From Arthrobacter gandavensis (GTDB lineage Bacteria; Actinomycetota; Actinomycetes; Actinomycetales; Micrococcaceae), in NCBI RefSeq assembly GCF_009192735.1, contig NZ_VTFU01000005.1, positions 124,001-188,000 of the forward strand: a stretch of DNA of 64,000 bases, given 5' to 3'. Position numbers and translations under genes: made by a program. Positions 8,362 to 49,715 of the stretch are shown here, piece by piece; position 1 is the stretch's first letter; the number at the start of each line of letters is the position of its first letter. The notes under the pieces were generated by a model that did not search any database, was not told the DNA's origin, and was given only the letters and a program-made list of their open reading frames with translations.

Positions 8362-9135
8362 TCAGCGCGGCCCCATCCGGATGGCGCCGTCCAGCCGGAT
8401 GGTTTCACCGTTGAGCATTTGGTTTTCGATGATATGCGCGGCCAGGGCGGCATATTCGTCCGGCCGTCCCAGGCGGGAAGGATGCGGCACCTGGCTGGCC
8501 AGCGAATCCTGGGCATCCTGCGGAAGCCCCGCCATCATGGGTGTTTCGAAGATTCCGGGGGCTATCGTGACCACACGGATCAAATGCCGGGCCAGCTCAC
8601 GGGCCAGCGGCAGCGTCATGGCAGCAACACCGCCTTTCGATGCGGCATACGCGGGCTGACCGATCTGTCCATCGAAGGCGGCCACGGATGCGGTATTGAT
8701 AATGACGCCGCGCTCCGATGTTCCTCCAGTTTCCAGGGGATCAGTCTCCGCCATGGCCTGCGCCGCCAACCGGCTCACGTTGAAGGTACCGACCAGGTTC
8801 ACCTGGACAACCAGGGCAAAATCCTCCAGCGGCAGCACACCGTTGCGGCCCAGCACCTTGCCGGGAGTGGCAATGCCGGCACAGTTCACCGCCACCCGCA
8901 GCGGGCCCGCGTTCATGGCAGCTTCCACCGCTGCAGCCATTTGGCCTGCATCCGTGACATCACCGGGGACGAAGTGGGCGTTGTCGCCAAGTTCGGCGGC
9001 ATAGGCCAAGCCGCCGGAGGACGGAAGATCAACGAGGATCACTGATGCCCCGGCGTCGTACAGCCTGCGGGCAGTAGCCCGCCCGAGCCCGGAGGCACCC
9101 CCGGTGACGAGTGCCGATGCACCTGTAATATCCAC
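8362..9135 (-). CDS. SDR oxidoreductase, 3-hydroxyacyl-CoA dehydrogenase type II-like
   Basis: This 257-aa classical short-chain dehydrogenase has the cofactor motif [10 protein letters not shown] near the N-terminus, the NCAGI motif (about residue 85), a serine-containing [11 protein letters not shown] strand and the catalytic YAASKGG. The Asp in VDLPSSGG after the second strand indicates NAD preference. The GTG at 9135 is preferred because AGGAG lies 6 nt upstream; the TTG at 9153 would put this ribosome site inside the gene. [16 protein letters not shown] and the C-terminus resemble the HSD17B10 group, which suits its operon with the acyl-CoA dehydrogenase. Confidence 0.88.
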
Positions 9136-9314
9136 TGCGTTCTCCTGCGACAAGTTACTGCCACCCCTTTGGCGGCACTGTCGAGCCTACTGTGATCCGC
9201 CCCACACTGCATCTTTGCCAGGGTTCCAGCGGTCCTGCAGCCCGAAGAGAGCGGATCCCTCCGACTCGGCTGCCGGCTGAGGGCCGCGGCTGTAAAAGGC
9301 AACGCGGACGGGTC

Positions 9315-9320
9315 TAGGGT
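9315..9320 (+). promoter_or_regulatory. Leaderless -10 hexamer for the GH76 gene
   Basis: TAGGGT ends 7 nt before ATG 9328, the pattern repeated at several genes in this window. Confidence 0.45.
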
Positions 9321-9327
9321 GGTGCGC

Positions 9328-10455
9328 ATGCTTCCCGAGGAACCGCTGCACGAAATCCAAGCCCGGGCCGACGACGCCGCGGCCTCCGTTACCGCAGCTT
9401 TCAGCCGCCCGCTGCTGGGCATCCCGGGCACGAAGCTGGCGTCAATCCAGAGCCCAAAACGCCGGACCCTGCTGCCCGGACCATGGCATTACTGGTGGCA
9501 GGCGCACTACGTTGATGTCCTGGTGGACGCCGCACTGCGCGGTTCGCCCCTTGCCGTACAGCATGCCAATCAGCTGGTGCGCACCATCCGGCTGCGGAAC
9601 GGACTGCGGGCCACCAATTGGTATTTCGATGACATGGCATGGCTGGCCCTGGCCGTGGCCCGGCTTGATGCCCTTGTTCCGACCCGGCCTGTTCGAGCCC
9701 AGGGCCGCGACGGCGGAGACCCTCCCGTGAAGATTCGCCCGCACCCGCGAATGCTGTCATCGCTGGGTGAGGCCCTGAGGTCCGCCCACAACCGGGACTT
9801 TGGCGGCGGTCTGTACTGGAACCGGCGGCGCACCTTCAAGAACACTCCGGCGACGGCGCCGGCGGCCCTGTATTTTGCCCGAAGCGGTGACCGCGAGCGC
9901 GCCCAGTCATTGGTTGACTGGTTGAACGACGTCCTCCTCGATCCCGGAACCGGCCTGTACCTCGACGGCGTCAAGGCGCCCCCGTCCCGTTCCGGGGAAC
10001 CGGTCCTGGAGCGTGCGGTGTTTACCTATAACCAGGGGCCAATCCTCGGTGCCCTGCTGGAGCTTGGCGGGCCGGCAAATGTCACCCGGGCCGCGGATCT
10101 TGTTCAGGCCGTCGGCAGCGAACTCACCCATGCAGGGACCTCAGTACTCATCACCCACGGAACCGGAGACGCGGGACTGTTCACCGGCATCCTCTGCCGC
10201 TACCTGGCTTTGGCCGCCGTATCACCGACCATTCCGTCCTCCCGCCGGCAAGAGGCGGCAGAGCTGGTGTCCGCCACCGCTCAGGAACTGTGGGCGGGAA
10301 GGACCAAACGCGGACAGTGGAGCGTCTTTTCGCCCCATCCGCTGGAACCGGCCGAACAGCACTACCCGGCGGGAACCGGCGTCGGCCTTTCCACCCAGCT
10401 TTCGGCATGGATGATCCTGGAGGCGGCAGCGCGGGTCCGGCGGCGCCTGGGCTGA
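9328..10455 (+). CDS. Glycoside hydrolase family 76 protein (endo-alpha-1,6-mannanase-like)
   Basis: This 375-aa protein has the adjacent catalytic aspartates of GH76 in NWYFDDMAWLALA (about residues 96-108), preceded by WHYWWQAHYVDVLVDAAL and followed by GGGLYWNRRRTFKNTPATAP and VFTYNQGPILGALLEL, the family's substrate-groove motifs. GH76 enzymes cleave alpha-1,6-mannan. No signal peptide is visible, so it is probably cytoplasmic, as in several actinobacterial homologues. The 3' end (EAAARVRR.LG) is part of a duplicated 38-bp block that continues into an intergenic repeat array. Confidence 0.9.
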   Translation: MLPEEPLHEIQARADDAAASVTAAFSRPLLGIPGTKLASIQSPKRRTLLPGPWHYWWQAHYVDVLVDAALRGSPLAVQHANQLVRTIRLRNGLRATNWYFDDMAWLALAVARLDALVPTRPVRAQGRDGGDPPVKIRPHPRMLSSLGEALRSAHNRDFGGGLYWNRRRTFKNTPATAPAALYFARSGDRERAQSLVDWLNDVLLDPGTGLYLDGVKAPPSRSGEPVLERAVFTYNQGPILGALLELGGPANVTRAADLVQAVGSELTHAGTSVLITHGTGDAGLFTGILCRYLALAAVSPTIPSSRRQEAAELVSATAQELWAGRTKRGQWSVFSPHPLEPAEQHYPAGTGVGLSTQLSAWMILEAAARVRRRLG

Positions 10456-20051: not shown

Positions 20052-21551
20052 CTAGCGCCGAAAAAGCTTGGTGTAGACCCGGTGCAGGAAAAGGGCGCTC
20101 TTGACCGTCCGCGATGAGAGCAGCCGCTCGTGCTCCGACTGCAGCTCCCCGTAGCCCCGGCGCTCTTGTTCCATGTAGGAGCGCATCCGGTCCTCTTCGA
20201 CCCGGGCCTGCGCTTCCAGGCCAGACCGGCCGTAGAATTTCCCCTGGCTTTGCTGCGCCGCGGCAAGCCAGGGTCCGGTGGCGGAAAAACGCTGCGTCCC
20301 GGGCAGATCCACAGCGGATCGGGATGCCGGTGATGCCTGCTGGAAGACGGCGGCCACCGCGTCCCACCACGATTGGCTCCACGCGGAGCGGGACGGAAGC
20401 ACTTCCGCCAGATGGCCGGAAATATCGGAACGGCGCTCCCAGGCTTCCGACAGGGCAGGACCGAGCAGGCCCTCCCCCAGCGCGGGAACCGGGAGGACGA
20501 AGTCCGACAGTCCCCAATTTCCCATGGCTCCGCTGATTCGAACTCCGCTGTAGTTGTCCGGGGCAAGGCCCAGGACCGGAACTCCGGCTGACAGCGCGAA
20601 CACCGCGGGGTGGTACCGGGTGGTGAGCACCATGGCGGCGCCTGCGGTAATCCCGGCGACGTCCCGTGCCGGGAGAACCGGGAGCTGCAGGGATCGAGTG
20701 CTCATGGCACCGGCAATCCTGGCGTGCGCGGCCATGTCCCAGCCTTGGTCGGCACCGATCCCCATGTGGGGAACGAAGACCACCGGCAGTCCGGTCTGGC
20801 CGTGCAGGCTGTCCAGCTCCGCTCCAAGCTGGGCGAACAAGTCCTCCCGCCCCTCGGAAAGAGGAGCAACCGTCACGGCTACGTATCCGCTGCCGGGCAG
20901 GTCCTGGACACCGTTTACCGCTGCTGTTCCGGAGGCTGCTGCGGGCTCGGACGACGCCGCGGGTGTCAGGAACGACGCATCGTCCAGCCCTGCGGCAGCC
21001 GGGACACCCATGCTGCGTGCCAGCTGCAGTGATGCCGGCTCCCGCATGGAGCACAGGTCCGCGGCGAGCAGCATTTCGGCCAACACGATGGCGTCCGGAG
21101 CGGTCAGCTGCGGTCCCAGTGTCTGACCGGATATGACCACGGGCTTGCCCAGCGCCCGCGCAATGACCACCGCTGCGGCCCGCTCATACAGCAGCCAGCC
21201 GTACCGCGAGTTCAAATTACCGCCGCCGGCGATCAAAAGGCCGTCGCACTCGGACAGCACCTCGATCAGTGCCCGGGCCGGGTCTTCCGGGGGCAACTCC
21301 GAAGTGCCTGCCAAATGGGCACGGATGTGCCCCAGATAGGACTCGCGTTCTGCCGGTGGCCAGGGAAAGGGCAGCGTGGCGGCTGCCGGGGCATCAAAAA
21401 GCCGCTCCGTCTGGGCCGGATTCCGGGAAAGCAGGAGCACCTGAAAACCGCGGCTGCGCAGTTCATCCGCGGCCGCATGCCCCATGGCTTCGTCACCGGC
21501 GTGGTACACGTCCTGTCCGAGGTCAGCCAGGACCGCAACACGGGAGGTCAC
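20052..21551 (-). CDS. Polysaccharide pyruvyl transferase family protein (CsaB-like)
   Basis: The 499-aa protein has a family opening VAVLADLGQDVYHAGDEAMG (corresponding to the GN.GDEA motif), then GLLIAGGGNLNSRYGWLLYE and GKPVVISGQTLGPQL, matching the GGG..L.D....S...Y and GKP...GQ.IGP signature of PS_pyruv_trans proteins such as CsaB. The second half has HARIAGAMSTRSLQLPV and TTRYHPAVFALSAGVPVLGL, a substrate-histidine region. A C-terminal extension from about 400 is coiled-coil-like and ends in basic FLHRVYTKLFRR. The GTG start overlaps the GT2 stop (GTGA). CsaB adds ketal pyruvate to wall polymers that SLH domains bind, and the next gene upstream encodes an SLH protein. Confidence 0.82.
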   Translation of the reverse strand: MTSRVAVLADLGQDVYHAGDEAMGHAAADELRSRGFQVLLLSRNPAQTERLFDAPAAATLPFPWPPAERESYLGHIRAHLAGTSELPPEDPARALIEVLSECDGLLIAGGGNLNSRYGWLLYERAAAVVIARALGKPVVISGQTLGPQLTAPDAIVLAEMLLAADLCSMREPASLQLARSMGVPAAAGLDDASFLTPAASSEPAAASGTAAVNGVQDLPGSGYVAVTVAPLSEGREDLFAQLGAELDSLHGQTGLPVVFVPHMGIGADQGWDMAAHARIAGAMSTRSLQLPVLPARDVAGITAGAAMVLTTRYHPAVFALSAGVPVLGLAPDNYSGVRISGAMGNWGLSDFVLPVPALGEGLLGPALSEAWERRSDISGHLAEVLPSRSAWSQSWWDAVAAVFQQASPASRSAVDLPGTQRFSATGPWLAAAQQSQGKFYGRSGLEAQARVEEDRMRSYMEQERRGYGELQSEHERLLSSRTVKSALFLHRVYTKLFRR

Positions 21552-22561
21552 GGCCGGGGTTTCCTCAGCAGCGCACTCCGCAGCGCTGCCGCTGCCGTGC
21601 TTCCCCGCCGTAGGAGGCCACTAAAGCTGGTCCGGTGGGTGACCGTGTCCTCAAGGTGATTCAGCGCATCGGTGAGCTGTGCCTGCATTGCGTCCATCCG
21701 CCGCTGGTTTTCCAGCAGCAGCTCCCTCTGGTCGGCCATCAGGCGGCTGACCTCAAGCAGGATTCCCAGACCGCCTTGGGTCAGATCCTTGCGCAGATAC
21801 TCATCCCGGACCCTGCGGTCAAAGCGCCGGTGGTCTTCCGCTTTGTCGAAGATGCTGTTGGCGTCGGTGCCGCTGGCGGCGGGCCGCTGACTCCAGAAAG
21901 CAAGAGGCTCACCGTCCAGGAACCCGATCGGATGGCGCGACAGGACACGGATGTTGAATTCCCAATCACCGCAGACATCCATTTTTTCGTCGTAATAACC
22001 GAGTTCTTCATGCAGGGAGCGGCGGTACAGGAAGGAAATAGGTACGGCACGGTTAACCTGGAGCATCTCGCCGAGGGATATCTGCTGGATATTCGCCCAG
22101 AAAGGTTCGGAACCTGTTTCCCGGATTTCTCCGTCAACAATTTCCTCGTAGCGTATGTTCGTCCGTACGACAACCCCTGCGTCGGAGCAATTTTCCAGAT
22201 GACGGACGGTTCGCTTCAGAAATTCCGGGTGCCAGAGATCATCGTCATCATGAATCGCAATGTACGTGGAGTCACAGCTGCGGATGCCGGAATTGGATGC
22301 TGCCTCCATCCCCCGGCTTGACTCGTGGTTCACCACGGTGACCAGCCCGCGGTCGGCGTTGGGAAGCCTGCCCAGCACCGCTTTGACCTGTTCGGGGTTG
22401 CCCCCGTCATTGACGATAACCACCCGGAATCCGCGGTATGTCTGGGCAAATACATCGGTGAGCGCCCGCTCCAGGAATTGCGGACGGTCCTTGGTCCTGA
22501 CGATGACGGCTACGGACGGTGATGCTGGCGCTGACACTTGGCTCCCGGGGTTTGGCTCCAC
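21548..22561 (-). CDS. Glycosyltransferase family 2 protein
   Basis: The 337-aa product has a GT-A fold: VAVIVRTKDRPQFLERAL, VIVNDGG and AIHDDDDLWHPEFLKR with the DXD-type metal site, then YYDEKMDVCGDWEFNIRVLS. A C-terminal helical region (LMADQRELLLENQRRMDAMQ) looks coiled-coil and ends in a basic tail, suggesting membrane or complex association. GTG 22561 is chosen because GGAGG lies 5 nt before it; a GTG at 22594 is the alternative. It is the first gene of an operon with the pyruvyltransferase, and is divergent from the SLH protease. Confidence 0.87.
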   Translation of the reverse strand: MEPNPGSQVSAPASPSVAVIVRTKDRPQFLERALTDVFAQTYRGFRVVIVNDGGNPEQVKAVLGRLPNADRGLVTVVNHESSRGMEAASNSGIRSCDSTYIAIHDDDDLWHPEFLKRTVRHLENCSDAGVVVRTNIRYEEIVDGEIRETGSEPFWANIQQISLGEMLQVNRAVPISFLYRRSLHEELGYYDEKMDVCGDWEFNIRVLSRHPIGFLDGEPLAFWSQRPAASGTDANSIFDKAEDHRRFDRRVRDEYLRKDLTQGGLGILLEVSRLMADQRELLLENQRRMDAMQAQLTDALNHLEDTVTHRTSFSGLLRRGSTAAAALRSALLRKPRP

Positions 22562-40783: not shown

Positions 40784-41677
40784 GTGACTTCTTCCCGCTT
40801 TGGTTTGCTGCTCGACGTCGACGGCCCGGTGGCCAGCCCGGTTTCCCGGACGGTTCCACCGGGCATCATCACCCATCTGGTGCAGTTGGCATCGGCTGGC
40901 TGGCCCGTCATCTTCAACACCGGCCGTTCCGATGACTTCATCCGCAAGCAGGTGATGGAACCCATGATGGCCGCCGGCTTGCCTGCGGAAACCACCCTGC
41001 ACGCCATCTGTGAAAAGGGCTCCGTCTGGTTCTCCTTCACCGGCGCCGGCGCCGGCGAGCCGCAGATCGATTCCGCCCTCGCCCTGCCCCAGAGTTATGC
41101 CGACGCCATCCGGCAGCTCGTGGCCGCCAAATACCGCGACCATATGTTTTACGACGAAACCAAGCGCGCCATGGTCTCGGTTGAGCAGCATGTGGACGTG
41201 GCCAACGCCGATTACCTGCGGGAACAGCAGGAGTTCGACACCGATGCCATGACCCTGATGCGGAAGTTCGATCTGGGCGTGTGCCGGCTGGATCATCACG
41301 CTCCGGACAGTGACGATTCGATCGATTACCGGATCGACCCCACCATCATTTCCACCGACATTGAGGCGCTGGGGGTCGGCAAAGACCTCGGCGCCCGCCG
41401 CGCCCTGTCCCTGCTGGCGGACGCCGGCACCGAAATTCCGCACACCTGGCGCACCGTCGGGGATTCCCGGACCGACTACGCCATGGCCGATGAGCTCCAC
41501 GCCCTGGGCTACGACGTCGCCCACGTGGACGTGCGGCCGGCCGACGGCGTGCCGGAGAAGCCCTATCCGGTGCTCACCGCCGGCGACCGGATCCATGAGG
41601 ATGCCGGCGGAGCCTACTTTGAGCGCTGGGCCGCCATGGCTGCCGGCACGGCAACCAACGACGACGGCGTCAGCTAG
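40784..41677 (+). CDS. HAD-superfamily hydrolase
   Basis: The 297-aa protein has HAD motif I as FGLLLDVDGPVASP (nucleophile and acid Asp at residues 11 and 13), NTGRSDDFIRKQV as motif II, and TVGDSRTDYAMADEL as motif IV; the Lys of motif III lies in GVGKDLGARRALSLL. A central cap domain links motifs II and III, resembling Cof/mannosyl-phosphoglycerate-phosphatase-type caps. GTG 40784 gives MTSSRFGLLL; ATG 40751 is the alternative. It converges on lysG with a 4-nt overlap. The substrate is unknown. Confidence 0.8.
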   Translation: MTSSRFGLLLDVDGPVASPVSRTVPPGIITHLVQLASAGWPVIFNTGRSDDFIRKQVMEPMMAAGLPAETTLHAICEKGSVWFSFTGAGAGEPQIDSALALPQSYADAIRQLVAAKYRDHMFYDETKRAMVSVEQHVDVANADYLREQQEFDTDAMTLMRKFDLGVCRLDHHAPDSDDSIDYRIDPTIISTDIEALGVGKDLGARRALSLLADAGTEIPHTWRTVGDSRTDYAMADELHALGYDVAHVDVRPADGVPEKPYPVLTAGDRIHEDAGGAYFERWAAMAAGTATNDDGVS

Positions 41678-42543
41678 CTCCTGAGCTGACGGCTGGCCCG
41701 GCGCACCGCGGCCGTGAGCCGGTCCAGGCGCTCGGACTGGAGCGTCCAGGCCTGCCAGTAGAGCACGACGTCGTGATGCGCCCCTGCGTCGAGCAGCACC
41801 AGCCGTCCGTCGTCGAAGTCGGAGCCAACCTGGAGTTCCGGCACCATGCCCCAGCCCAGCCCGGCCCGGACGGCTGCCACGAAGGCCTCCGACGACGGAA
41901 CGATGTGCATCGGCGGGACGCCGACAACGCCATGGGATGCGAGGAAGGTGCGCTGCAAGTTGTCCTTAGCATTGAACTGCAGCACCGGCATCGCCTCCCA
42001 GTCCACGCCCTCCGGCCGGGTAAACCGTTCCCGAAGTGCCGGAGCAGCCGCTGGAACATAGCGCATGGCGCCCAGCCGCACAGCCCGGCATCCGTTCACC
42101 GGTGACGGATCCGAGGTCACCGCGCCCAGCACGTCGCCCTGCCGCAGCAGCCGGCTGCTGTGGTCCTGGTCCTCCACATGCAGATCCAGCGTGGTGTCGG
42201 CCCAGCCGGCTGCCTCCTGGAGCAGCGGCAGGAACCAGGTGGCCAGGGAATCAGCGTTCACGGCCAGGGGTGTGGCGGTCACCGCCGACGTTGCCATTCC
42301 CAGGGCTTCCCTCGCCTCGGCTTCCAGCAGCTGCACCTGCCGGGCCAGGCGCAGCAGCGCGGCCCCGGCATCGGTCGGGGTACAGGGTACGGCGCGGCGC
42401 ACCACCACCTGTCCCGCCGACTTCTCCAGAGCCTTGATCCGCTGGCTGACCGCCGAAGGACTGATATGCAGGCGGTCGGCGGCAGCCTCGAAGGTTCCCT
42501 CATCAATGACGGCGGCCAGTGCGCGCAGGTGTTCGAAGTTCAT
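41674..42543 (-). CDS. lysG: LysR-family regulator LysG/ArgP
   Basis: The 289-aa protein has the LysR N-terminal HTH (FEAAADRLHISPSAVSQRIK, residues 19-38), and a C-terminal effector domain. ATPLAVNADSLATWFLPLL is a signature of ArgP/LysG, the Lys/Arg-sensing activators of amino-acid exporters. Divergence from lysE supports this. The ATG follows TAGATT by 6 nt, so the mRNA should be leaderless. LysG activates lysE when cytoplasmic Lys or Arg accumulates, as established in Corynebacterium. Confidence 0.95.
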   Translation of the reverse strand: MNFEHLRALAAVIDEGTFEAAADRLHISPSAVSQRIKALEKSAGQVVVRRAVPCTPTDAGAALLRLARQVQLLEAEAREALGMATSAVTATPLAVNADSLATWFLPLLQEAAGWADTTLDLHVEDQDHSSRLLRQGDVLGAVTSDPSPVNGCRAVRLGAMRYVPAAAPALRERFTRPEGVDWEAMPVLQFNAKDNLQRTFLASHGVVGVPPMHIVPSSEAFVAAVRAGLGWGMVPELQVGSDFDDGRLVLLDAGAHHDVVLYWQAWTLQSERLDRLTAAVRRASRQLRS

Positions 42544-42614: not shown

Positions 42615-43211
42615 ATGTTGAGCATTTGGGGCACCGGTTTACTGACCGGGCTGGGATTGATCGTCGCCATTGGAGCGCAGAATGCGTTTGTCCTGCGGCA
42701 GGGCATCCGCCGCGAACATATCGCAGCGGTGGTGGTGCTTTGCGCGGCCGCCGACGCTGTCCTCATTCTCGCGGGCACTGCGGGCATTGGCGCACTGGTT
42801 TCCAGTTTCCCCCAGGTCCTGGACATCCTGCGCTGGGGCGGTGCGGTTTACCTCACCTGGTTTGCGGTCAGGTCCTTCATCTCAGCCCTGAAACCTGCCG
42901 CCCTGACCGGACAGGCCCCACGCTCCCGCGGCTCCGTCATCACCACCACGCTGGCGCTGACCTTCCTGAATCCGCACGTCTACCTGGACACCGTCGTTCT
43001 GCTCGGAAGCCTGGCCAATCAGTATGGCGAGACAGCACGGTGGATCTTCGCTGCCGGGGCCGTCCTGGGCAGCATCCTGTGGTTCACCGGCCTCGGCTAC
43101 GGCGCCCGGGCGTTGTCCGGGCCGCTCAGCAAGCCGCGCACCTGGCAGGTGCTGGACCTGCTGATCGGCGTCGTCATGCTCGCCCTGGCGGTAAAACTGC
43201 TGCTGGGCTGA
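42615..43211 (+). CDS. lysE: LysE/ArgO-family amino acid exporter
   Basis: The 198-aa protein has six hydrophobic segments and the LysE signature GLIVAIGAQNAFVLRQGIRR at residues 11-30, with LTFLNPHVYLDTVVLLGSLA after the central loop. LysE exports L-lysine and L-arginine, which keeps the pool in check during growth on peptides. The size is normal. It is divergent from lysG and its leader is apparently absent. Confidence 0.96.
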   Translation: MLSIWGTGLLTGLGLIVAIGAQNAFVLRQGIRREHIAAVVVLCAAADAVLILAGTAGIGALVSSFPQVLDILRWGGAVYLTWFAVRSFISALKPAALTGQAPRSRGSVITTTLALTFLNPHVYLDTVVLLGSLANQYGETARWIFAAGAVLGSILWFTGLGYGARALSGPLSKPRTWQVLDLLIGVVMLALAVKLLLG

Positions 43212-43313
43212 GGCCGCGGCTTCTGCTGTACAGGCACGGCGGCCAACCCTAGACTGTGCCCACCGCCTCCAGCCCGTACGCGCCGCCACCCACTGACAGG
43301 ACATCCCCGCCTC

Positions 43314-43607
43314 ATGTCGACCGCCTCACGATTCTTCGCCGGCGTGCTCCTGGCCAACGCCGTACCGCACGGGGTAAACGCTGTTCAGGGCAAGGAATTT
43401 CCGACTCCGTTTGCCTCCCCTCCCGGCGTCGGACTGTCCAGCCCCATGGCCAACGCCCTGTGGAGTTCCCTCAACGCTGCAGGCGGTGCCGCCCTGCTGA
43501 GACGACCGGCAACGGACACCCGCGAACGTGCGGCCGTCCTGGCCGGAGCCATCTCCATGAGCTTCTTCTTGGCCTATTACTTCGGAAAGGCCCTCGACCG
43601 GACCTAG
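43314..43607 (+). CDS. Small membrane protein (97 aa)
   Basis: Begins MSTASRFFAGVLLANAVPHG and has two to three hydrophobic stretches, including LWSSLNAAGGAALLR and AAVLAGAISMSFFLAYYFGK. The ..FFAGV..ANAVPHG...GK.F.TPFA pattern occurs in a common actinobacterial membrane family of unknown function. There is no strong ribosome site before the ATG, so the start is uncertain. It lies 102 nt after lysE on the same strand. Confidence 0.7.
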   Translation: MSTASRFFAGVLLANAVPHGVNAVQGKEFPTPFASPPGVGLSSPMANALWSSLNAAGGAALLRRPATDTRERAAVLAGAISMSFFLAYYFGKALDRT

Positions 43608-43648
43608 CACGGCCGAAGCGAACCGCGCCACGTGCAGCGGCACCGGCG

Positions 43649-44326
43649 CTAGGCCGGGACGTGCGTTGCGGTAACCCAGCGCAGCAGTGAGTACAGCAGC
43701 TGGGAAGCGCCGGGCATGAAACCTGAACCGTGGTGGTACACCGGATCCATGGTGGTCACCAGCAGGCGGGCCGGCTGGTTCACCTCATCCACGTAGAGCA
43801 GGGCACCGGAATCAGTGCCGTTCTCCTCCATGACAACGAGGGAGCGAGCTCCGGCTGGCGGATGCAGCAGGCCGTGATGGTGCCAGGAAACCGCGCGCTG
43901 CGTGAAGTACTCCCACATCGGGTCCCCCGGCAGCCGCAGCCGCGTGCCGTTGTCCTCTCCGGTGCGCCAGGTCCAGAACACAGTGGGGCGGAAGGTGTAG
44001 TCGACGCCGGGCAGCCACTGCTCCACCTTGTTCTCGCCGAGCACGATCACGGTCTTGCCCGGATCCTGCAGCGCTTCCCGGATGGCCGGAGCGAAATGGG
44101 CCAGCTGGCCCTGATGCAGCCGGTCCCCCACCAGAATTACGTCCAGTGCGCAAAGATCCGAGGGATCGGCGTCGGGCAGGTAAACCGACTCGAGGCGGTA
44201 AGGCGCCAGCGCCGGATCGGCCAGGGTACGCAGTGCCGGAAAGGTGCCGCAGTGCAGCATGCCGAGGCGGGGTGCACTGCCGGTCCCGGTCCCGGCAGTG
44301 GTGGCAGACGACGTGGGGGCGCTCAT
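43649..44326 (-). CDS. Unknown protein B of the iron-regulated ABC operon (GATase/ThuA-like fold suspected)
   Basis: The 225-aa protein is the last gene of the operon. Alternating hydrophobic strands (PRLGMLHCGTF, ALDVILVGDRL, KTVIVLGENK) and the pattern VEQWLPGVDYTFRPTVFWTW recall Rossmann-like flavodoxin or class I amidotransferase-type folds; no Cys-His-Glu triad is clear. A histidine cluster (SWHHHGLLHPP, DPVYHHGSGF) could bind metal. It overlaps the preceding gene by 4 nt (ATGA). By eye it shares layout with protein A next to it, suggesting tandem paralogues. I do not know its function. Confidence 0.75.
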   Translation of the reverse strand: MSAPTSSATTAGTGTGSAPRLGMLHCGTFPALRTLADPALAPYRLESVYLPDADPSDLCALDVILVGDRLHQGQLAHFAPAIREALQDPGKTVIVLGENKVEQWLPGVDYTFRPTVFWTWRTGEDNGTRLRLPGDPMWEYFTQRAVSWHHHGLLHPPAGARSLVVMEENGTDSGALLYVDEVNQPARLLVTTMDPVYHHGSGFMPGASQLLYSLLRWVTATHVPA

Positions 44327-45030
44327 GCGCTGACTCCTTCAGTGGTGTCGAGGGTCTGGACCTCGGAAGCATGGGCTTGCCCGTGGCCGGTGCCGCCTTC
44401 CAGCCAGGCCACCAGGTTTGGGCCGAGCTGCCGGGTGGAGTATTCGTCGTCGGAAAAACTCTCCAGATCGTTGCCGCCGTGAACGAGCACTTCCCCCGCT
44501 CCCAGCCGGTAGCTGTAGTCCAGTGGCAGCCGGTACTGGCCGATGCCCGTCACGGTGCGGGCGTCGTCGGGCAGATCCAGGTGGTAGCCGCGGCCATAGA
44601 AGCCGGCGACGCCGATTTCTTCCAGCCGCTCGTAGCTGTGAGTCCCGGGAACACCTGTGCGGTAGTGCAGGTCCAAGTAGTCCACCCCCGCCCATACGGG
44701 ATGCGGCTCAACGGAGAGCGGCTGCACATCCTGCGGTCCGCGGAATTCCAGCTTGCGCCACGGCGTAAGCCCATCAATGAACGGCTTCACGACTTGGCCG
44801 TTGACCAGCACGCGCCCGCCGCCGCGGACAAAGCCGTTCAGTGCGCCGCGGTGTTTGACCAGCAGCAGATGGTCGGCGCCGCCGCCGATAATCAGGCCGT
44901 TGGCGCCGAGAATCCGCGCACGGGCGGCGTCGTCGTTGAGGTCGTACGCATCCACGTCCTCCAGTGCGCCACGCCAGGCGGGGCCGCGCGCACCACGCAT
45001 CGGCGCATCGCCTATCAGTCGGTAAATCAC
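44323..45030 (-). CDS. Unknown protein A of the iron-regulated ABC operon (GATase/ThuA-like fold suspected)
   Basis: The 235-aa product starts at GTG 45030 (AAAGGA 8 nt upstream), overlapping the ATPase stop (GTGA). GANGLIIGGGADHLLLVKHR, LNGFVRGGGRVLVNGQVV, HPVWAGVDYLDLHYRTGVPG and AGEVLVHGGNDLESFSDDEY suggest a ThuA/amidotransferase-like alpha/beta fold, but no catalytic Cys is present. The ordering of strand, loop and W/H-rich motifs is parallel to protein B. Position in an iron-boxed uptake operon suggests a role in releasing or processing the imported compound; this is inference only. Confidence 0.75.
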   Translation of the reverse strand: MIYRLIGDAPMRGARGPAWRGALEDVDAYDLNDDAARARILGANGLIIGGGADHLLLVKHRGALNGFVRGGGRVLVNGQVVKPFIDGLTPWRKLEFRGPQDVQPLSVEPHPVWAGVDYLDLHYRTGVPGTHSYERLEEIGVAGFYGRGYHLDLPDDARTVTGIGQYRLPLDYSYRLGAGEVLVHGGNDLESFSDDEYSTRQLGPNLVAWLEGGTGHGQAHASEVQTLDTTEGVSA

Positions 45031-46048
45031 GGAAGGTCCTTTCGGAAGGGCAGTGCGGCAGAGAAGTTGGAGGGCAGGGCAGTGCCGGAACGCGCCGGCA
45101 CGGGGCAGTCCCCGCGGCAGGAGGGGCCGAAGTCCGGCACCGCAATGACGCGGTCGCCCGACACCGTCCCCACGGTGGGGGTGCAGATCGGCAGCCCGTA
45201 AACCGCAGACAGGGCGGATCCGGTCAGCAGGTCTTCGGTGGGGCCCCAGCGGGTGTCGTCGCTGCCAACAAAAAGCAGTGCATTGCGCGAAATATGCAGG
45301 GCATGGTCGGGATGGTGGGTGGTCATGATGACGCCCATCCCGTCGGCGGCGAGGCCGGCGAGCACGGTCAGCACCCGGGACTGGTTGTGCAGGTCCAGGG
45401 CCGATGCCGGCTCGTCCAGGATCAGCAGCTCGGATCCGGAGGCCAGCGCCCGGGCAATAAGCACCAGCTGCCGTTGCCCGCCGGAGAGCTCGGCATAGCT
45501 GCGGTTGGCCCACGCGGCCACTCCCACCCGTTCCATGGCGGCATCCGCCGCATCATGGTCTTCCCGGCGCGGGGTCTGGTAAGCGCGGAGATGCCGGCTG
45601 CGGCCCATGAGCACCATCTCGGCAACACTGAAGGATGTGCCACCGGCGCCGTGGTCCTGCGGTACGTAGCCGACGGCGGTGCCGCAGCTGATCTGCCCCT
45701 CGCGGGGAGCCAGCAGGCCGGACAGGCACTTGAGCAGAGTGGTTTTCCGCGGGCGTTGGGGCCGAGGATGGACAGGATCTCTCCGCGTTCCAACTCGAAG
45801 CCCAGGTCCCGGAACAGCCAGGGGCGCAGCCGGGAGTAACGGAACCCCAGACCGGTGACGGTCATCAGGGGTGCGCCGGCACTGGCCGGTGCGGCCAACC
45901 CGCCCGCGGCAGGATCGACGGCGGCAGGTGTGGCGGCAGGTCTGGCGGCGGCGGCATGCTCGACGTCGGCGGCATGGTCGACGGCGGCGGCAGGCGCGGT
46001 AGACGGAGCTGCGCTCACGGGAGGCTTCGGGTCGGAAACGACGGTCAT
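45027..46048 (-). pseudogene. ABC transporter ATPase of iron-complex type, frameshifted in Walker A
   Basis: The first frame runs from ATG 46048 (ATGA overlap with the permease) through a Pro/Ala-rich N-terminus to ILGPNARGK, then loses register. The second frame resumes with KTTLLKCLSGLLAP, GYVPQDHG, LSGGQRQLVLIARAL (signature), LLILDEPASALD (Walker B) and ends at 45027. The span is 1,022 nt, one short of a multiple of three. The fault lies at the A4 run on the minus strand (45743-45746): one extra A restores GPNARGKTTLL. The rest is intact for a FecE/FepC-type ATPase, so a sequencing error, recent mutation or slippage are all possible. Note also Ala in place of Gly in GPNG. Confidence 0.85.
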
Positions 46049-47244
46049 GACACCGCACCTTTCTTTTGGGAACGGGCCAGCAGCAGGACAAAAACGGGGG
46101 CGCCAATGATGGCGGTGAGGATGCCCAGCGGCAATTCACTGCTGGAGAGGGAACGGCTGAGGGTGTCGATAAGCATCAGGTACGTGCCGCCAAGCAGCAG
46201 CGACGCCGGAAGCAGCACCCGGTGGTCCGGTCCCATCCAGAGCCGGGCCAGGTGTGGAACCACCAGACCCACCCAGCCCACGGCGCCGGCAACAGCAACG
46301 GTGCCTGCCGTCATCAGCGCCACCGCGCACAGCAGCACCACCCGGGAACGGTGCGGATTCACGCCCAGGGCGGCGGCGTCGTCGTCGCCCAGCGAAAGGA
46401 CGTTCAGGCGCCAGCGCATCGCCAGCACCACGGCGCCTCCGATCGCCACCGGAACCAGGGCGGTCAGCACCTTGGTGTAGCTGGCTGCGGCAATGGAGCC
46501 CAGCAGCCAGTGCACAATCGAGGGCAGTTCGGAGTACGGATCGGCGGTGTAGGTGATGAAGGAGACCAGGGCATTGAAAAACGCCGCCACGACGATCCCG
46601 CCGAGCACGATCATCAGCATCGGACCGCCGGCACCGCCCATGCGCCCCAGGGCCAGGACGACGGCGAGCGCGGCCAGGCCAAAGCCGAACGCACCGCCAA
46701 CCATCCACCCGCCGGACAGGCCGAGGGTCAGGACCAGCACGCCGCCGAAGGACGCTCCCGCTGTGACGCCGATAATGTCCGGGCTCACCAGCGGATTGCG
46801 GAACAGCGCCTGCAGGCATGCACCGCCCAGTGACAGTGCCCCGCCCACCAGGAAAGCCAGCAGAACGCGCGGCAGCCGAACATCCAGGACCACTGTGGCT
46901 TCCTGGTCCGTCCAGGTCCGCCGCAGCGCCCCCTCTCCCCCGCCGGCACCGAACAGCACTGTCGCTTCATTGGCGAGGATGCGCAGGATTTCGTTCGGCG
47001 GCACCCAGTACCGCCCGGCGGCCATGGAGATCAGGGCCACCGCGAGCAGGATCAGGACGCACAGCAGCAGCGGCAGCCGGTGGCTGCGGGCCGGCGGGCG
47101 GGAGGGTTCCGGCATGGCTGACTGAGGCGGGGTCGGCCCGGCCGGGTTCGACGCCGGCGCGGACAGCTCCGCGTCGGTTGCCGTTCCCGCTCCGCCGGCC
47201 GCCGTCGTCGTACCTGTCCTCACCTCACGCACCAAAGACGTCAT
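46045..47244 (-). CDS. FecCD/BtuC-family ABC permease for an iron complex
   Basis: The 399-aa membrane protein has about ten hydrophobic segments. Family motifs are LDVRLPRVLLAFLVGGALSL, QALFRNPLVSPDIIGVTAGA, GLVVPHLARLWMGPDHR and ELPLGILTAIIGAPVFVLLL, all typical of FecCD. The first 50 residues are an Ala/Pro-rich cytoplasmic tail. One permease gene would work as a homodimer. The start ATG 47244 lies inside the end of the binding-protein gene (20-nt overlap), though GTG codons 47232 and 47223 are also possible. The upstream iron box indicates iron-dependent control. Confidence 0.9.
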   Translation of the reverse strand: MTSLVREVRTGTTTAAGGAGTATDAELSAPASNPAGPTPPQSAMPEPSRPPARSHRLPLLLCVLILLAVALISMAAGRYWVPPNEILRILANEATVLFGAGGGEGALRRTWTDQEATVVLDVRLPRVLLAFLVGGALSLGGACLQALFRNPLVSPDIIGVTAGASFGGVLVLTLGLSGGWMVGGAFGFGLAALAVVLALGRMGGAGGPMLMIVLGGIVVAAFFNALVSFITYTADPYSELPSIVHWLLGSIAAASYTKVLTALVPVAIGGAVVLAMRWRLNVLSLGDDDAAALGVNPHRSRVVLLCAVALMTAGTVAVAGAVGWVGLVVPHLARLWMGPDHRVLLPASLLLGGTYLMLIDTLSRSLSSSELPLGILTAIIGAPVFVLLLARSQKKGAVS

Positions 47245-48358
47245 AGCCGGCACTTGCGCTGTTCAGGTCCATGCGGAGGGCGGTGTCGATCTGGGCCTCC
47301 GAAATGTCGTAGCCGTAGAGGTAGCTGATCTTCTCGCGCATGGCCGCGCGGAGGTTGTGCTGGGTGAGCTCGGGATGGAAGATTTCGGCGGCCCACTGCC
47401 ACATCAGCGGGGATTCGGCGCACGGAACTTCCCAACGGTAGCCGCCCAGCGGAGCTTTGTAGACGCGGCGGTTGCGCACCGCGGACACTGAGGCCAGCGA
47501 CTTGTCCGCGTACACATCGGCCGGTGTGCGGGTGTCGAAGCCGCCCAGCGTGATGACCTCGGGATCCCACTCGATGAGCTGCTCGGCGCTGACCACGTTT
47601 TCGGCGCTGATGTTATCCGCCGCCATATTCCGGCCGCCGGCCAGCTCCATCCAGTAATGCATGTAGGCGGTTTTGTTCGATGCCGAGTAACCGTCGCCGG
47701 ACTGGCCCAGGTGAACCACGCGCACGGGAGCGGAGAACGAGGAGAGTTCCCGCTGCAATCGCTCGATCTCGGCGTGCATCCAGTCCACGATCTCAGTGCC
47801 GCGCTCCGGCTTGCCGAGGATGGTGGAGAACAGCGAGACCCAGGTCTCGAGGTATTCCTGCGTGCCGTAGAGCAGACACACGGTCTTGAAGCCGGCCGTT
47901 TCCAGCGGCTCCACGAGACCGTCACCCTGATCCGCCCACTGGAACACGACGTCGGGGTCCAGGGAGGTGAGCGTTTCAATGTTCGGGGTGAAGCTGGACG
48001 GGGAGACTGTGGTGGTGCTCTTCGACTCCGGGTACATCTCGCCGAACAGTCCCTGCCGATTGGCCTGGAGGGTGGACTCGTTGATCCCCACGATTTTGCC
48101 GTAATCGCCGTCAACGGCTGCAAGCATGGACGGGGAGGGAATCACCGTCGTCGCAATCCGCTGCACTGGACCGTCAAAAGTGATCTCCACACCGCGCATG
48201 TCAGTCACGGTGAAGCCCTGGGAACCGGCGGATCCGCCCGTTGCGGCCACCGTTTCACGGGAGGAGCATGCGCTCAGTGCGAGGGCCAGAAAGCCCAGGC
48301 CGGCGCCGCCCAGGACGGTGCGGCGGGATGTTCCATGTGGGGGAATGGAGGGAGACAA
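47225..48358 (-). CDS. Iron-complex ABC transporter substrate-binding lipoprotein
   Basis: The 377-aa protein has a twin-arginine lipoprotein signal: SRRTVLGGAGLGFLALALSA then the lipobox Cys (LSAC, residue 31). It has a PeriBP fold: FTVTDMRGVEITFDGPVQRI, NIETLTSLDPDVVFQWADQG, and SAENVVSAEQLIEWDPEVIT followed by LGGFDT. The TTG start is supported by AGGAA 6 nt upstream; no other in-frame start exists. It belongs to the siderophore/heme/cobalamin class; a DtxR-type box directly upstream favours iron. The ligand cannot be told. Confidence 0.9.
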   Translation of the reverse strand: MSPSIPPHGTSRRTVLGGAGLGFLALALSACSSRETVAATGGSAGSQGFTVTDMRGVEITFDGPVQRIATTVIPSPSMLAAVDGDYGKIVGINESTLQANRQGLFGEMYPESKSTTTVSPSSFTPNIETLTSLDPDVVFQWADQGDGLVEPLETAGFKTVCLLYGTQEYLETWVSLFSTILGKPERGTEIVDWMHAEIERLQRELSSFSAPVRVVHLGQSGDGYSASNKTAYMHYWMELAGGRNMAADNISAENVVSAEQLIEWDPEVITLGGFDTRTPADVYADKSLASVSAVRNRRVYKAPLGGYRWEVPCAESPLMWQWAAEIFHPELTQHNLRAAMREKISYLYGYDISEAQIDTALRMDLNSASAGYDVFGA

Positions 48359-48379
48359 CTGCGTTCCTATCGCTAACGG

Positions 48380-48396
48380 TAGGTAAGGCTTACCTA
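48380..48396. promoter_or_regulatory. DtxR/IdeR-type iron box
   Basis: TAGGTAAG-G-CTTACCTA is a perfect 8+1+8 palindrome, close to the consensus TTAGGTTAGGCTAACCTAA. It lies 21 nt before the TTG of the binding-protein gene, where a repressor would block its promoter. This marks the whole five-gene operon as iron-regulated. Confidence 0.85.
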
Positions 48397-48670
48397 AAGA
48401 CTGACCCGGGTATCAGATCACATCGAAGCGATTAGCGCATATTTGTGTATCGTAATTGTGGTGGGTATTACGTCACAAGACCGGGTGCGCCATGACGCCC
48501 AGTGGCCTTGCCGGGGGTGGTGCAGATTGCAGGAGAGGGCCGCGCCAACGTGTCGCCGCGAGACGTTATGTGACGCCATGGCCGCCGGGTGCGGAGATAA
48601 AGCCGCAGGCCAGAGCGGGTATCGCAGCTCGGAGCGTAACAATTGCTACTCACTTGACAGCGTCCGGGTG
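48397..48670. other. Intergenic region between the iron operon and the oxygenase gene
   Basis: Beyond the iron box this 274-nt stretch contains AT-richer sequence at 48430-48475 (ATTTGTGTATCGTAATTGTGG), likely promoter material for the minus-strand operon, and TTGACA at 48654-48659. TTGACA is only 11 nt from the oxygenase -10 hexamer and so does not form a standard pair with it. No gene or RNA was recognised. Confidence 0.4.
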
Positions 48671-48676
48671 TAGCTT
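48671..48676 (+). promoter_or_regulatory. Leaderless -10 hexamer for the 2OG oxygenase gene
   Basis: TAGCTT ends 7 nt before ATG 48684. Confidence 0.45.
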
Positions 48677-48683
48677 CGCAACC

Positions 48684-49715
48684 ATGACTGCGATTCCCGA
48701 CTCCATTCCCGTTTTGGACCTGAGCACCGCCCGCAACTCCGACGGTTCCTTCAACGCCGACTTCATATCAGCGCTGCGTGATGCCACCCACCGCATCGGC
48801 TTTTTCCAGTTGGTTGGCTACGGCACCGGTGAATCCAAATGGGAGGACCTCTTCGACGTCACGAAGCGCTTCTTCGACCTGCCGCTGGAGAACCGACTGG
48901 AGCTGGACAACCGCAGGTCGCCGCACTTCCGCGGCTACACCCGGCTGGGCACCGAGCTGACCCAGGGCCGGCCGGACTCACGCGAGCAGATCGATTTCGG
49001 ACCGGAACGCGAACCTGTTGCCGATTACCCGGCCGATCAGCCGTTCTGGCTGGTTCAGGGACCCAACCTCTTTCCGGACGAGGTCCTTCCCGAGCTGCGG
49101 GAGAAGTCAATGGAATGGGCAGAACTAATGTCCGGGGTGGGGGCGGAGCTGCTCAGCGCCATCGCCGTATCCCTCGAGCTGCCCGAAGACCATTTTGCCG
49201 AACCGTTCGAAGGCTCTCCGGCCTGGATGGCCAAGCTGGCCCACTATGTTGGCGGCGAGGTCCAAGAAGCCGGCACCCAGGGCGTGGGCTCGCACGCAGA
49301 CTATGGTTTTGTGACGCTGCTGCTCCAGGATTCCGTGGGCGGGCTCGAGGTCCGCCCGCACGAGTCCGAGACCTGGATTCCGGTGGAACCTATCCCGGGG
49401 GCGCTCGTGGTCAACCTGGGTGAAATGCTCGAAGTGGCCACCCAGGGCTACCTCTCCGCCACCATCCACCGCGTCACGGCTCCGGCGCCGGGTGTGGACC
49501 GCTACGCCATTCCGTTCTTCTGGTCCCCCCGGCTGGACGCCGTCATCGACCCGGTGGAGCTGCCCGCCGAACTCGCGGCGCAGTCCCGCGGCATCTCCGA
49601 TGACCCGGAAAACCCCATGCTGGCGTCCTACGGGTCCAACGTCCTCAAGGGCTGGCTGCGCGCACATCCCCAGGTGGCCACGCTGCATCATCCGGAGCTG
49701 CTCGCCTCGAAATAG
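48684..49715 (+). CDS. Isopenicillin N synthase-family 2-oxoglutarate/Fe(II) oxygenase
   Basis: The 343-aa protein begins with the DIOX_N motif IPVLDLST and has GSHADYGFVTLLLQD containing the HxD pair and YLSATIHRVTAP with the distal His, giving the 2-His-1-carboxylate iron site. RYAIPFFWSP holds the Arg that binds 2-oxoglutarate. This matches common actinobacterial members of unknown substrate. ATG 48684 is chosen because the domain starts at residue 8 and a leaderless hexamer is next to it. It is divergent from the iron operon, with the box 288 nt away. Confidence 0.9.
   Translation: MTAIPDSIPVLDLSTARNSDGSFNADFISALRDATHRIGFFQLVGYGTGESKWEDLFDVTKRFFDLPLENRLELDNRRSPHFRGYTRLGTELTQGRPDSREQIDFGPEREPVADYPADQPFWLVQGPNLFPDEVLPELREKSMEWAELMSGVGAELLSAIAVSLELPEDHFAEPFEGSPAWMAKLAHYVGGEVQEAGTQGVGSHADYGFVTLLLQDSVGGLEVRPHESETWIPVEPIPGALVVNLGEMLEVATQGYLSATIHRVTAPAPGVDRYAIPFFWSPRLDAVIDPVELPAELAAQSRGISDDPENPMLASYGSNVLKGWLRAHPQVATLHHPELLASK

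Follow-up and report, generated by a model that had tools for sequence, protein, structure and literature searches.

We analyzed a stretch of 64,000 nucleotides (nt) from Arthrobacter gandavensis (contig NZ_VTFU01000005.1; hereafter, the window), in which an iron-boxed operon for an ATP-binding cassette (ABC) importer ends in two genes, A and B, of an unnamed protein family. As a whole, the data are best explained by a cytosolic A–B unit that takes over the iron chelate from the importer and either frees its metal or processes it, a reading that we put at a probability of about 0.6. The pair represents a new family at a site of a familiar kind, and no description of it was found in the titles and abstract openings of open-licence papers.

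Relationship, conservation and operon of A and B

Protein A (235 amino acids, GTG start, 44323–45030, minus strand) and protein B (225 amino acids, 43649–44326, minus strand) both fall below every Pfam and NCBIfam cut-off, in agreement with a sequence-only reading of this DNA that had recognized no family in either, and a sequence search of the Protein Data Bank returned nothing better than E = 0.12. BLASTP found no significant similarity between them (best E = 1.2), whereas profile–profile comparison aligned them over 205 columns with a probability of 98.8 and E = 6e-17 (reversed-profile control, 0.1). The ‘paralogue-like’ appearance claimed by the same reading, therefore, holds for profiles and is lost at the level of single sequences. 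The profiles were built from clean alignments of 43 A rows and 46 B rows; scores from first-pass profiles were left out of this comparison because iteration had merged the two families. One haloarchaeal A protein matched the A profile at E = 2e-10 and the B profile at E = 3.5e-8, as an intermediate would.

Profile comparisons further suggest that A and B each consist of a domain resembling ThuA and the class I glutamine amidotransferases (GATase1). Against nine ThuA domains, the probability was 74.6 for B and 30.4 for A, while controls (reversed ThuA, response regulators and the family of the companion gene C described below) gave 0.1 to 0.6. The window proteins themselves produced no match to ThuA (PF06283; gathering score of 33.4 bits) up to E = 1. 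At E ≤ 0.1, ThuA was reached by four of the 46 B rows (best E = 0.0012) and by none of the 43 A rows, always below the cut-off, and individual members matched DUF4159, ThuA, DUF4350 and GH42M weakly. Because the ThuA profile scores exceed those of the controls and such weak member matches recur, we tentatively place A and B, as remote relatives, in or near the ThuA/GATase1-like superfamily, without membership in ThuA; what had been described as a GATase/ThuA-type look is thus a distant likeness. Three separate, true ThuA genes occur elsewhere in the same genome. Up to E = 1, neither protein matched a Pfam or NCBIfam model of the siderophore-release families (FhuF, siderophore-interacting reductases and esterases). 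Low-scoring Protein Data Bank profile matches (designed proteins, a nanobody, a COP9 subunit and similar) and single weak Pfam or NCBIfam matches, such as S4 and TraB, were taken as chance. An IFT52 chain at E = 1.6 is noted only for its domain, which is GATase-like.

The tryptophan- and histidine-rich motifs pointed out earlier in both proteins proved to be conserved across relatives. In B (window numbering), H149, D194, P195, H198 and G200 are present in all 46 rows, H151 in 44 and H199 in 42; WHxHG and DPxxHHG are the motifs that hold these residues. Among the 43 rows of A, D53 and H110 never vary, D171 and H184 occur in 42, and the stretch GVAGFYGRG is nearly invariant. One position of B carries Cys in 40 of 46 rows; since window B has Asp there, a Cys nucleophile at this place would not be general. 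Ratios of nonsynonymous to synonymous substitution rates (dN/dS) against the nearest relative (0.19 for A and 0.11 for B) indicate purifying selection on both genes as well as on the transporter genes.

The operon reads, entirely on the minus strand, lipoprotein, permease, ATPase, A and B, with overlaps of 20, 4, 4 and 4 nt between neighbors. The binding lipoprotein (377 amino acids, TTG start, 47225–48358) scored 67 bits against Peripla_BP_2 (Pfam cut-off, 27.5), and its N terminus, read directly, shows a twin-arginine and lipobox-like sequence (SRRTVLGG...LSAC). The permease (399 amino acids, 46045–47244) scored 280.7 bits against the FecCD family (PF01032; cut-off, 26.5). With both proteins above their cut-offs, the transporter is of the FecCD type. 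Twenty nucleotides upstream of the lipoprotein start, the DtxR/IdeR-type iron box noted earlier (48380–48396, TAGGTAAGGCTTACCTA; no strand assigned) is indeed a perfect 17-bp palindrome (8+1+8) and is the only exact match to TAGG-N9-CCTA in the 3.72-Mb genome, compared with 80 matches per strand for the pattern read backwards. We scored boxes against a 19-nt sequence that we take to be the DtxR/IdeR consensus; with at most three mismatches, it matched a single site in the window and no site in 100 shuffles.

The claim of a five-gene operon stands for the gene order and the overlaps of 4–20 nt but not for the ATPase as one open frame. In the ATPase region (45027–46048, minus strand), an N-terminal piece (from 46048) and a C-terminal piece (to 45027), the latter covering most of the ABC domain (ABC_tran, E = 1.6e-17), lie in different frames, with the change at about 45740–45760 in the Walker A stretch; an intact ATPase with a Walker A is, thus, missing from the window. 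Among the 21 other genomes of the genus with the operon, 20 relatives were fetched and all have the two pieces in one frame, so that the frame change was confined to the window genome among the 21 compared, relatives having intact copies. Given these copies and the low dN/dS values of the operon (0.067 for the C-terminal ATPase piece, 0.086 for the binding protein and 0.094 for the permease), the break is either a recent event or a sequencing or assembly error. Next to the operon lie a LysE-like exporter gene (42615–43211, plus strand) and a divergent LysR regulator gene (41674–42543, minus strand), and both occupy the same position in seven named Arthrobacter loci whose pair is fused, the names having been compared by eye.

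Distribution, importers and operators of the A–B pair

Of 29 genomes of the genus, 22 had A, B and the binding protein together, and seven had none of the three. The outcomes that the sequence-only reading had set against itself, a confident match to a non-iron family or absence of the pair beside iron transporters in related genomes, did not appear. Its term ‘heteromeric’ fits the window genome, where A and B are two genes, but not the genus as a rule: in 17 of the 22 genomes, the two are fused in one protein, leaving the window and four others with separate genes. Searching 148 relatives with A yielded 23 matches, 22 from the genus and one from another family. Among 396 genomes drawn from across the phylum, each scored for its best candidates only, three matched the B profile, own genome included. 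A scan of 84,980 species genomes detected 129 related stretches. We kept the best 80 (79 loci), which come mostly from rhizobia and also from Achromobacter, Thalassospira, Stappia and Arthrobacter. Plasmid records contributed 22 matches to A and 29 to a fused A–B query, with the product listed as hypothetical protein or unannotated wherever the family itself was named. Both A and B were present in all 107 loci examined (99 distinct); these had been fetched by A or A–B queries, and only lone members could have contradicted the pairing.

For a count of units, we used 84 records, namely 83 fetched loci and the window, with 88 units, 44 fused and 44 split. The fused or split state requires three changes on the B tree. 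Diverged fusions with B before A were seen in Aliivibrio, Rhizobium and others, some by tblastn match position, and stand beside FecCD importers in L025 (2666–4030), L027 (2343–3692) and L109 (6863–8152). On two Martelella plasmids, the fused protein is annotated in two to three pieces and may be broken (L130, 12001–13310; L132, 12001–13311).

A genome-context survey, as suggested in the sequence-only reading, ties A–B to importers of iron or metal complexes far beyond the genus. Importer genes lay within 1.5 kb of 81 of the 88 units, 68 of the FecCD type and 13 of the peptide/nickel type, leaving seven with none; as a control, 1181 places were drawn at random from these loci, 6 kb or more away from any pair, and 222 of them had such genes. 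Two actinomycetotal genomes outside the order combine the pair with peptide/nickel-type importers, one genome of another family has it with a FecCD importer, and in Paenibacillus, C, A, B and the genes of a peptide-type importer follow one another. Annotated plasmids extend the range. A haloarchaeal plasmid carries the pair in an operon with a solute-binding protein, a 605-amino-acid iron permease and an ATPase, taken as an Fbp-type importer; a Paracoccaceae plasmid pairs it with a NikA-type importer; and on a Chelatococcus plasmid, an NrtA/SsuA-type importer lies 322 nt upstream. Because the importer label changes on the B tree, the pair appears to stay while the importer class changes: the label requires ten changes on a quick tree of 94 B rows, and well supported branches force at least four changes of the peptide/nickel label, several branches of this tree being long and its deep joins unsure. 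Three loci (L025, L037 and L041) contain two importers, each with its own diverged A–B or B–A unit, and in L051 a binding protein has its own A–B pair, which suggests that A–B is matched to the ligand.

Iron-type control was suggested twice. Of 21 upstream regions from the genus, counting that of the window, 18 had a DtxR-type box (best site within 120 nt, at most five mismatches to the 19-nt consensus), while shuffled sets averaged 0.07 and never exceeded 2. Such a conserved, consensus-matching operator before the operon is what would be expected of a DtxR/IdeR regulon member. The second operator is TGA-N9-TCA, which we take to be the IRO box of RirA. RirA is reported to bind IRO boxes (PMC6748827). 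This palindrome occurred within 120 nt of the binding-protein start in 19 of 24 rhizobial operons (shuffles: mean 1.0, maximum 5; random pieces of the same loci: mean 1.0, maximum 4), the operator rows being related and the counts, hence, not independent. The 24 operons come from the 36 loci L028–L063, the rest having no clear binding-protein start or another layout; two bear other titles (L042, an Arenimonas metagenome-assembled genome, and L054, Marinicella) and sit in the rhizobial clade. Among 17 other loci, four had TGA-N9-TCA (shuffles: mean 0.5, maximum 2), but none of the nine betaproteobacterial ones did. In 41 upstream regions outside the genus, Irr-type and DtxR boxes showed no excess over shuffles; Escherichia coli-type Fur patterns were slightly in excess, with matches that overlap the TGA-N9-TCA palindrome in related rows. 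Since the importer is not always of the siderophore type, ‘iron’ has good support only in rhizobia and in the genus to which the window belongs.

A third gene, C, of about 170 amino acids (for example, L024, 8201–8725), adjoins 47 of the 88 units. One member scored 22.2 bits against FmdE (cut-off, 22.9), and the others gave no match. The FmdE family is reported to have the motif FHGHxC, to bind Zn or Ni and to be encoded mostly next to metal-ion transporter genes (PMC2954224). In C, the motif appears as YHGxG and, therefore, two of the metal ligands are lost, making C a degenerate FmdE-like companion. Mobilizable or conjugative plasmids of Martelella and Labrenzia carry annotated carbon–phosphorus (C–P) lyase genes next to a LysR gene, the pair, C and an importer of the FecCD type (L130, 10899–21215; L131, 809–7872 with 20144–22471): phnG, phnH, PhnI, PhnJ and two ATPases in the Martelella record and phnG, phnH, PhnJ and two ATPases in the Labrenzia record. 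None of these stretches lists the usual importer for phosphonates.

Proposed role and alternatives

Under scarce iron, the operon would import an iron complex, and A and B, as one cytosolic unit with two ThuA/GATase1-like domains, would take this complex from the importer. A cytosolic location is suggested by inspection, which revealed no hydrophobic signal sequence. A–B might then bind the ferric complex and free the iron by ligand exchange or ligand hydrolysis, with the invariant His and Asp residues of B (WHxHG and DPxxHHG) and those of A probably forming or flanking a site that holds the chelate. Every step after delivery by the importer, that is, chelate binding, the site and the chemistry, is one that we infer. 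That a ThuA-like fold can do work of this type follows from a dimethylformamidase, whose ThuA-like domain is reported to cleave an amide at an Fe3+ active site (PMC7686228). Action of A–B on the imported complex or its ligand appears probable to us, while any one chemistry is doubtful.

Several observations weigh against an iron-releasing unit. Seven of the 88 units lack an importer gene within 1.5 kb, namely L069, at the end of a contig, L071, the second pair of both L072 and L074, and three from Thalassospira (L093, L094 and L099) with none recognized. The relationship to ThuA is remote and, with a probability of 30.4, weak for A. Achromobacter and its relatives showed no prominent DtxR-, Fur-, Irr- or RirA-like box. 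The C–P lyase neighborhood on two plasmids points to the ligand rather than to iron, and with its broken ATPase the operon may or may not work in the window genome. In the Thalassospira loci, where the pairs lie around 8900–10265 with no importer recognized nearby, the region upstream in L093 contains long open frames resembling, by eye, a carbon–nitrogen hydrolase and a GATase1 protein.

The C–P lyase context fits an alternative in which A–B is a ligand-degrading enzyme that opens up the chelator as a source of carbon, nitrogen or phosphorus, the metal serving only for recognition by the importer. On the Martelella and Labrenzia plasmids, a row of LysR, A–B, binding protein, permease, ATPase and C adjoins the annotated C–P lyase genes, the pair also accompanies peptide/nickel-type importers and, by annotation, one of the Ssu/Nrt type, and enzymes with a ThuA-like fold exist. 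We regard this as unlikely, as the DtxR-type and TGA-N9-TCA operators before FecCD operons fit the supply of iron rather than that of carbon or phosphorus, A and B show no evident catalytic triad and the Cys of most B rows is replaced by Asp in the window. A metallochaperone, sensor or importer regulator without action on the ligand would account for the invariant His-rich motifs, for the many changes of importer class on the tree and for a third gene resembling the reportedly Zn/Ni-binding, transporter-linked FmdE family (PMC2954224). However, a diverged unit for each importer within one locus fits ligand specificity better than general metal handling, and such a role seems to us quite improbable.

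Chance placement of an ordinary ThuA-type sugar enzyme, suggested by the remote profile similarity, is very hard to reconcile with scores below the ThuA cut-off for all members scanned and with importer linkage across phyla. Uptake of cobalamin or another corrinoid with a remodeling enzyme was likewise considered, the permease resembling BtuC among others (225.6 bits, below the cut-off of 461). It was rejected as barely credible because there was no Rfam match, and hence no cobalamin riboswitch, in window positions 43000–49500 up to E = 1, nor any Rfam match at the gathering score in eight related loci; operators of the iron type are found instead.

Iron release from the chelate, or its processing, by a cytosolic A–B unit is the reading that we prefer. 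A bolder version, which we offer tentatively, makes A–B a new and widely shared importer-coupled chelate processor: a two-domain ThuA-like protein, joined in many lineages by the FmdE-like C, that would serve unrelated kinds of ABC importer, at least two and by annotation four, in Actinomycetota, Pseudomonadota, Bacillota and a haloarchaeon. It would open metal chelates, perhaps including phosphonate chelates, by undescribed chemistry.

Comparison with known systems

To our knowledge, iron removal from imported chelates is understood for only a few release-protein families. An unnamed family beside several unrelated importers and two iron-operator types is a direct, testable candidate for another iron-release route. 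Should the phosphonate link prove true, it would show how metal-bound phosphonates or similar chelators enter bacteria and are opened.

Homologous to each other, adjacent or fused and located beside an ABC importer, A and B have the features by which we define the family. Like known FecCD/BtuCD-type operons for ferric-chelate import, the window operon unites binding lipoprotein, permease and ATPase behind one iron box; it differs in the addition of A and B, in having no known release protein and in its broken ATPase. Cytosolic iron-release proteins encoded in siderophore operons comprise FhuF, siderophore-interacting reductases and Fes/IroE-type esterases. With these, A and B share the operon place and the proposed role but no sequence match. 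The ThuA family (PF06283), of the class I glutamine-amidotransferase-like fold, is similar by remote profile likeness, whereas A and B remain below its Pfam cut-off, carry invariant motifs of their own and occur as a pair or fusion at importers. A parallel in working is the dimethylformamidase of Paracoccus, where a ThuA/GATase-like fold is reported to hold an Fe3+ site (PMC7686228); the comparison concerns working only, the iron ligands there being given as two Tyr and one Glu, whereas A and B conserve His and Asp.

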